Shown here: positions 3,497 through 32,490 of the stretch, in pieces
Layout: each line of letters starts with the position of its first letter
How positions within the stretch are numbered: position 1 is the stretch's first letter
Assembly (NCBI RefSeq): GCF_001514235.1
Contig: NZ_KQ948933.1
Coordinates: 118,694-182,693 of the forward strand
Source of the DNA: Streptomyces caeruleatus
GTDB lineage: Bacteria > Actinomycetota > Actinomycetes > Streptomycetales > Streptomycetaceae
Reading direction: 5' to 3'
Length of the DNA stretch: 64,000 bases
The notes under the pieces: generated by a model
The model's database searches: none
The model's input: only the letters and a program-made list of their open reading frames with translations
Told to the model about the DNA's origin: nothing
Made by a program: the position numbers and the translations under genes

Positions 3497-3682
3497 ATGG
3501 GCATCTTCGACAGGTTCAAGAACCGTCACGCGCAGGACAAGGCCCGGGACATGTCCGACGCCGCGGAGCGGCAGGCCAACGAGAAGACGGGCAGCAAGTA
3601 CGAGAGCCAGGTCGACGACGCGCAGCAGCGCATGGAGCGCGGCATCGGCATGGACCGCGACCGGCCGCCCGAGCAGCAGTAG
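3497..3682 (+). CDS. Small MT0933/Rv0909-like antitoxin-type protein
   Basis: 61 residues, strongly charged, beginning MGIFDRFKNRHAQDKARDMSDAAER. The opening MGIFDRFK and the amphipathic helical body resemble the mycobacterial Rv0909-like family that Pfam labels antitoxin. No toxin gene is next to it, so an antitoxin role is not supported by context; members without partners are common in actinobacteria. AAGGAG at 3484-3489 lies seven bases before the ATG. Confidence 0.65.
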   Translation: MGIFDRFKNRHAQDKARDMSDAAERQANEKTGSKYESQVDDAQQRMERGIGMDRDRPPEQQ

Positions 3683-3839
3683 AGGCCGAGGCCGGAGGAG
3701 CACGAGCCCTGTCGGGCACGGTACCGACGACGCCGTCCGCGGAGACCCAGCTCGCGCGGACGGCTTCGGCCGCCGGGGCCGGGGCGCCACCTCGCCCGCC
3801 CACCGGCCTCGCCCGCCCACCGACCGCCCCCGACCCCCT

Positions 3840-3863
3840 TGACCTCAAGTCCACTTGAGGTCA
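3840..3863. promoter_or_regulatory. Perfect SoxR/MerR-type operator in a 19-bp-spaced promoter
   Basis: Arms TGACCTCAAGT (3840-3850) and ACTTGAGGTCA (3853-3863) are perfect reverse complements around CC. The core CCTCAAGT..ACTTGAGG matches the SoxR-box pattern. A TTGACC -35 (3839-3844) and a CAGAGT -10 (3864-3869) are 19 bases apart, the overlong spacing typical of MerR-family activated promoters, with the operator filling the spacer. The predicted start point falls on or next to the ATG at 3877. Confidence 0.8.
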
Positions 3864-3876
3864 CAGAGTGATCGGC

Positions 3877-4344
3877 ATGACCACCGAAACAGCGGACATC
3901 AAGGCCGACGGGACCACTGCCGACGCGGACGCGGACGCGGACCTCAGGGCCATCACCGAGGTCGTCGCGACCGTCGAACGCACCCAGCGCGCCAAGGACG
4001 CCGAAGGCTTCCTCGCCCTCTTCCACCCCGACGCCCTGTGGACGACCGGCCACGGCAAGGTCCTCTTCGGCTTCGACGCCATCGCGGAGTTCACCCGTGC
4101 CGTGCTGCCCGCCGCGAGCTGGGACGGCGAGGTCACCTACGAGGTGACGCACACGCGGTTCCTGCGGCCCGACGTGGCGGCCGTCAAGGTCCGGCAGGTC
4201 TACCACTCACCGGACGGCGAGGCCGACACCGAGGGCGCCCCGCTCTACGTCATGACCAGGCAGCCCGACGGGCGCTGGCTGCTGCACGCCTGCCAGAACA
4301 CCGAGGTACGAAGCGAGGTACGGGGCGAGGTACGGGGCGACTAG
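3877..4344 (+). CDS. SgcJ/EcaC-type SnoaL-like protein (NTF2 fold)
   Basis: 155 residues from the ATG at 3877; a GTG at 3868 would overlap the -10 box. The transcript is probably leaderless. After an acidic Asp/Ala N-terminal stretch, residues from about 24 read ADLRAITEVVATVERTQRAKDAEGFLALFHPDALW...GHGKVLFG, the layout of the SgcJ/EcaC subfamily of NTF2-like proteins. These are often called oxidoreductases, but their chemistry is mostly unknown. The end is a repeated EVR(S/G) motif. The MerR/SoxR-type operator suggests induction by redox-active compounds or another small molecule; no MerR gene is adjacent. Confidence 0.75.
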   Translation: MTTETADIKADGTTADADADADLRAITEVVATVERTQRAKDAEGFLALFHPDALWTTGHGKVLFGFDAIAEFTRAVLPAASWDGEVTYEVTHTRFLRPDVAAVKVRQVYHSPDGEADTEGAPLYVMTRQPDGRWLLHACQNTEVRSEVRGEVRGD

Positions 4345-32453: not shown

Positions 32454-32490
32454 AACGGTGCCCCCTGCTCGCACGAGCAGGGGGCACCGT
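32454..32490. terminator. Strong bidirectional terminator
   Basis: Stem CGGTGCCCCCTGCTCG / CGAGCAGGGGGCACCG with only CA between the fully paired arms (in practice a loop of six), flanked by AA and TCGTT, between the convergent surface protein gene and ppc. Confidence 0.93.

Follow-up and report, generated by a model that had tools for sequence, protein, structure and literature searches.

A probable SoxR-activated promoter abutting the start codon of an ecaC orthologue, predicted to encode an SgcJ/NTF2-type protein, in Streptomyces caeruleatus

The window, i.e. the whole 64-kb stretch of S. caeruleatus DNA that was analysed, contains beside mfd a gene for a small SgcJ/EcaC-family protein, preceded by a compact promoter built around an inverted repeat. 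The features of this locus are as follows.

3839-3844, + strand: -35 element TTGACC, read from the sequence and nearly invariant across the 59 boxed loci described below
3840-3863, + strand: perfect 11-2-11 dyad, the proposed SoxR operator, read from the sequence; the box is conserved in 59 of 66 loci
3843-3860, + strand: 18-bp soxbox core, inside the dyad
3864-3869, + strand: -10 element CAGAGT, 19 bp from the -35 element; its A (position 2) and T (position 6), i.e. xAxxxT, are invariant in 59/59 boxed loci
3875-3877, + strand: expected transcription start (leader of 0-2 nt), deduced from the -10 spacing and the conserved ATG
3877-3879, + strand: start codon ATG of the ecaC orthologue, 7 nt after the -10 element
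3877-4344, + strand: ecaC orthologue encoding a stand-alone SgcJ/EcaC-family (DUF4440, NTF2-like) protein of 155 aa, assigned by TIGR02246, PF14534, fold and tree clade
4184-4202, + strand: exact match, within this gene, to the SCO1178 forward qPCR primer
4342-4344, + strand: stop codon TAG of the ecaC orthologue

A small gene upstream of ecaC (3497-3682) gave a weak match to an MT0933-like antitoxin (PF14013, 31.4 bits).

Direct reading of the sequence confirmed the earlier note's description of a perfect dyad with 11-bp arms and a SoxR core, filling the 19-bp spacer between TTGACC and CAGAGT. The dyad is an exact inverted repeat, TGACCTCAAGT-CC-ACTTGAGGTCA, located between the -35 and -10 elements as in SoxR promoters, and the spacer is over-long, as is typical of this type. 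It contains CCTCAAGTCCACTTGAGG, the classical soxbox in its E. coli form. An in-frame GTG (3868-3870) overlaps the -10 element. With up to three mismatches allowed, CCTCAAGTNNACTTGAGG has a single match in the window, with 0 mismatches, while dinucleotide shuffles gave a mean of 0.12 matches (a match in 12 of 100 shuffles). The perfect 16-base soxbox occurs once in the 10.29-Mb genome, compared with approximately 0.0005 copies expected from base composition. A perfect 11-2-11 dyad is not in itself unique in the window, since a second, GC-rich one, possibly a terminator stem, lies at 32461-32484. This second dyad could be taken to mean that the repeat at 3840-3863 arose by chance, a reading whose probability is practically negligible in view of the rarity of the soxbox genome-wide and the conservation of both its sequence and its spacing at 59 of 66 loci.

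These loci come from a search for relatives of the gene at E 1e-20 or better, which identified 66 places in 63 of 295 genus genomes, all of which were analysed. The pattern TTGACCTCAA-N6-TTGAGG, with at most two mismatches, is present at 59 of them; the seven loci without it are L087 and six in which an epimerase domain lies upstream. A stricter 16-base box was scored at the best 80 of 89 loci from genome_contigs (partly from the same genomes as the 66-locus set): 74 had at most 4 mismatches and six had 5 to 8, and the boxed loci in this sample include Kitasatospora, Wenjunlia and the S. lavendulae plasmid pSA3239. The location beside mfd was found at 11 of the 66 loci, all within one clade of 12 (97/86). 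The promoter and the gene therefore stay together, while their genomic place varies by lineage.

In some relatives (L108-L113, the same genes as L102-L107), an NAD-epimerase domain is fused to an SgcJ/EcaC domain at the C-terminus. Approximately 2 kb upstream of each of these six fusion loci were searched, and no strict box with fewer than 5 mismatches was present. The fusions hint at a substrate common to SgcJ-type proteins and reductases.

The spacing downstream of the box is also conserved. Relative to the box, the start codon is ATG at +38 in 54 of the 59 boxed loci, ATG at +37 in two and GTG at +38 in one, with neither in the remaining two. As only 7 nt separate the -10 element from the ATG at 3877, there is no room for a ribosome-binding site, and since 56 of 59 boxed loci have their ATG at +37 or +38, a leaderless ecaC mRNA is likely. 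The conserved spacing thus supports the prediction of a leaderless gene made in the earlier note, which had placed the start point on the ATG itself; the first base of the ATG does fall within the expected range, which we would widen to 3875-3877. Alternatively, transcription may start further upstream, or translation may begin at GTG 3868, so that the mRNA would not be leaderless. In agreement with this possibility, an in-frame GTG or ATG occurs at +29 in 44 of 59 ecaC loci, and three of the six boxed genes start further from the box both in the window genome (+70 to +98, the ABC transporter, ecaC and SnoaL_4 genes having +37/+38 starts) and in the related genome G246 (+66 to +71, with +37/+38 starts in the FMN reductase, ABC transporter and ecaC genes). 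However, the +29 codon sits within the -10 element and is missing from the other loci of the 59, and this alternative also accords poorly with the conserved ATG and the short distance to it; we consider it unlikely.

The identity of the gene was established by comparison with EcaC (SCO1178), a confirmed SoxR target in S. coelicolor: SoxR binds its promoter, and its expression in a soxR mutant is 52-fold lower by RNA-Seq and 60-fold lower by qRT-PCR (PMC4146615). Both primers of the SCO1178 qPCR pair printed in PMC5826349 have an exact match in two of 146 related loci, L059 (genome G246) and L055 (G118), in each case within the stand-alone SgcJ gene; the reverse primer has 4 mismatches in the window gene. 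Downstream of the SgcJ gene in L059 lies a GntR-type gene in convergent orientation, and such a convergent neighbour has been described for SCO1177 and ecaC (PMC4146615). In G246 the core box occurs with at most one mismatch at six places (reverse readings not counted), in front of genes which, named from their sequences, encode an MDR oxidoreductase, an FMN reductase, an ABC transporter, an ABM monooxygenase, the SgcJ-type protein and a quinone oxidoreductase. Each of them has its counterpart among the six genes of the published regulon, the SgcJ gene occupying the slot of ecaC. The box of the quinone oxidoreductase gene lies approximately 309 kb from the far end of the 8,629,698-base contig, close to the published position of SCO0320ext at 319.6 kb (PMC4146615). 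Because the published primers match and the six boxes fit the six published genes, EcaC itself is, on sequence evidence, a stand-alone SgcJ-type protein. In a tree of 66 rows the window gene and those of L055 and L059 fall into one clade of 29 rows (support 100/97, many inner forks unresolved), and we identify the window gene as an ecaC orthologue, although its neighbourhood (mfd) differs from that of L059 (DUF/GntR-type neighbours).

The suggestion in the earlier note that SgcJ-type genes are unknown among published SoxR targets, and that the gene may be an added regulon member, must therefore be withdrawn, as ecaC already belongs to the published regulon (PMC4146615). The possibility that EcaC is an epimerase-SgcJ fusion was also considered and rejected: no strict box with fewer than 5 mismatches lies upstream of the fusion loci, and it is the stand-alone gene that the primers match. 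By its locus-tag number, S. scabiei SCAB_5581, an ecaC homologue according to PMC4146615, is probably the SgcJ gene located near 626 kb in NC_013929.1 (L190). The window protein matched 35 plasmid records, none of them from S. clavuligerus, which speaks against p0595 of this species being a close SgcJ gene, if its plasmid is in the searched collection.

In print, EcaC is labelled an epimerase or NAD-dependent epimerase/dehydratase (in the available text of PMC4146615, PMC5826349, PMC7674942, PMC13407594 and PMC13170358), and this label, together with the existence of epimerase-SgcJ fusions among the relatives, is what speaks for such a product. The properties of the 155-aa window protein make this extremely improbable. 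It scores 123 bits with TIGR02246 (SgcJ/EcaC family; curated cut-off 33.95), its only NCBIfam match, and its only Pfam matches are to DUF4440 (PF14534)/SnoaL models; an epimerase/Rossmann domain is absent at Pfam E 0.001 and NCBIfam E 0.01. An AlphaFold2 model built from 18 sequences (pLDDT 84.6, pTM 0.77) resembles SgcJ (Z 16.1, rmsd 2.5, 126 residues aligned), SgcE6 (Z 16.2) and other NTF2-like chains, among them LinA, scytalone dehydratase-like proteins, NTF2 itself and S. coelicolor ActVI-ORFA (14.5). The 50 solved structures listed have Z 14.4 to 16.4, these scores being a re-examination of Foldseek's own ranking. Likeness of a modelled fold would not by itself establish the function of EcaC. 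Our guess is that the epimerase label arose by annotation transfer from the epimerase-SgcJ fusions.

Several observations point to SoxR as the regulator. The SoxR model has 14 matches in the genome, of which one (239 bits, contig C20) exceeds the cut-off, and this protein carries the iron-sulphur cysteine motif C-X2-C-X-C-X5-C of a 2Fe-2S SoxR. In the genome, TTGACCTCAA-N6-TTGAGG is matched exactly at five sites and with one mismatch at a sixth (reverse readings not counted), and at all six a 19-bp spacer is followed by an xAxxxT hexamer. When up to three mismatches were allowed, the whole genome gave 20 rows and the backward control 9, which marks most of the weak sites as noise. The six boxed genes are:

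C1:324617: ABC transporter, ecaA-type (named from sequence), with an exact core box and ATG at +38
C4: ABM monooxygenase (protein scanned against family models)
C10: ecaC orthologue (3877-4344 of the window)
C10:279082-279570: SnoaL_4 protein (scanned against family models)
C16: zinc-type quinone oxidoreductase-like protein (scanned against family models)
C10: NADPH-dependent FMN reductase-like protein (named from sequence)

The ABC transporter, ABM monooxygenase, zinc-type oxidoreductase and FMN reductase seen behind these boxes belong to the classes of confirmed targets in the six-gene SoxR regulon of S. coelicolor (PMC4146615). The single clear SoxR, the recurrence of this box in front of other SoxR-target classes and the conservation described above support a SoxR-type promoter, in line with the earlier note, and make SoxR the best-supported regulator of 3839-3869. 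That note had also allowed for another MerR protein, whose action through the dyad would be in keeping with a layout common to MerR-type operators and with the 30 MerR_1 matches in the genome. Nevertheless, no box with 0 or 1 mismatch lies within approximately 1.5 kb of any of these 30 loci, two of which have 2-mismatch matches only (at +480 and +1411 of the locus match). Moreover, only one protein passes the SoxR cut-off, the box is common to SoxR-target classes, and binding of SoxR has been demonstrated at the ecaC promoter of S. coelicolor (PMC4146615). Control by a different MerR-family activator is thus very unlikely, and the 3839-3869 region is, with high probability, a SoxR-activated promoter of the ecaC gene of this strain.

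Published expression data from S. lincolnensis contain a similar set of genes. In an lmbU deletion mutant the log2 change is -4.76 for an SgcJ/EcaC gene, -5.35 for an ABM monooxygenase, -4.23 for a zinc-binding dehydrogenase, -4.09 for an FMN reductase and -3.74 for an MdlB-type ABC transporter (PMC7014725, Table 2). These five genes of SoxR-regulon classes are among 19 lowered non-lmb genes, the other 14 being outside the set, and SoxR is not mentioned in the accessible text of that paper. We infer that the five genes represent a SoxR-regulon signature.

The SnoaL_4 gene, which lies outside the window (region G000 C10:279045-279570; L129, L227), has an exact core soxbox and its ATG at +37. 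Thirty of the 63 matches listed were analysed. All 22 copies with at least 70% identity (L227-L248, its own included) have a box with at most two mismatches and an ATG at +37 or +38; among eight more distant relatives, six have no box, L249 (49%) keeps both the box and the ATG at +37, and in L254 a one-mismatch box is combined with a start at +90. The gene is not among the six SoxR-regulon genes as given in PMC4146615, and a search of mostly open-access literature found no SnoaL-type SoxR target in Streptomyces. It may therefore be regarded as a candidate second SnoaL-type SoxR target. In addition, a 2-mismatch box with 19-bp spacing precedes an NmrA/SDR-like gene outside the window (G000 C6:142767-142788, L134), which is a possible further SoxR target.

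The probable course of events can be outlined from the established SoxR/MerR mechanism. A SoxR dimer would occupy the dyad between the -35 and -10 elements, whose 19-bp spacing would leave them out of register for RNA polymerase. Redox-active compounds, such as actinorhodin in S. coelicolor, oxidise the 2Fe-2S cluster of SoxR, and the oxidised protein would then distort the spacer so that the two elements line up. Transcription would begin at the ATG or at most 2 nt away, yielding a leaderless mRNA, and the product would be a small pocket protein of NTF2/SnoaL fold, not a Rossmann-type epimerase. The most likely role of EcaC is to bind or modify quinone-like metabolites, in parallel with the regulon's reductases, monooxygenase and ABC exporter. 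More broadly, the Streptomyces SoxR response may include two NTF2-fold proteins, EcaC and SnoaL_4, expressed from SoxR promoters abutting the start codon; as small pocket proteins binding redox-active polyketides or reshaping them, they would give the response a portable arm, and selection would have favoured the leaderless layout because it keeps them translated under antibiotic stress. We judge the chances for and against this broader proposal to be evenly balanced.

The site in the window is of a known kind: it is, with high probability, the SoxR-controlled ecaC promoter of a further species. What our analysis adds is the recognition of EcaC as an SgcJ/NTF2-type protein, the conserved layout in which the promoter abuts the start codon, and a second SnoaL-type candidate target. 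The record of EcaC is thereby corrected, as a SoxR target labelled epimerase/dehydratase appears to be a stand-alone NTF2/SnoaL-type protein, which directs functional work away from NAD chemistry, and the SnoaL_4 gene, whose promoter is arranged in the same way, offers a testable further candidate.

Among known systems, many iota-carbonic anhydrases are annotated as SgcJ/EcaC and are NTF2-like, as is the window protein, but they have an HHSS motif (PMC8425729), which was searched for in the window protein and is absent from it. SgcJ of the C-1027 enediyne cluster (PDB 4ovm) shares the family model and the fold (25% identity over the alignment given above); it sits in a biosynthetic cluster, whereas the window gene is a lone gene adjoining mfd. 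Within the same genome, the ecaA-type ABC transporter promoter has the same exact core box, 19-bp spacer and ATG at +38, and differs in its -10 element (TACGGT instead of CAGAGT) and in its product. The window gene differs from the primer-matched genes in genomic place, and its box is better than that of ecaC in G246 (0 versus 1 core mismatch). The closest counterpart is ecaC of S. coelicolor, known here through the SCO1178 primers and the primer-matched relatives, which is alike in the box between the -35 and -10 elements, the 19-bp spacer, the ATG at about +37/+38, the stand-alone SgcJ-type product and the clade.
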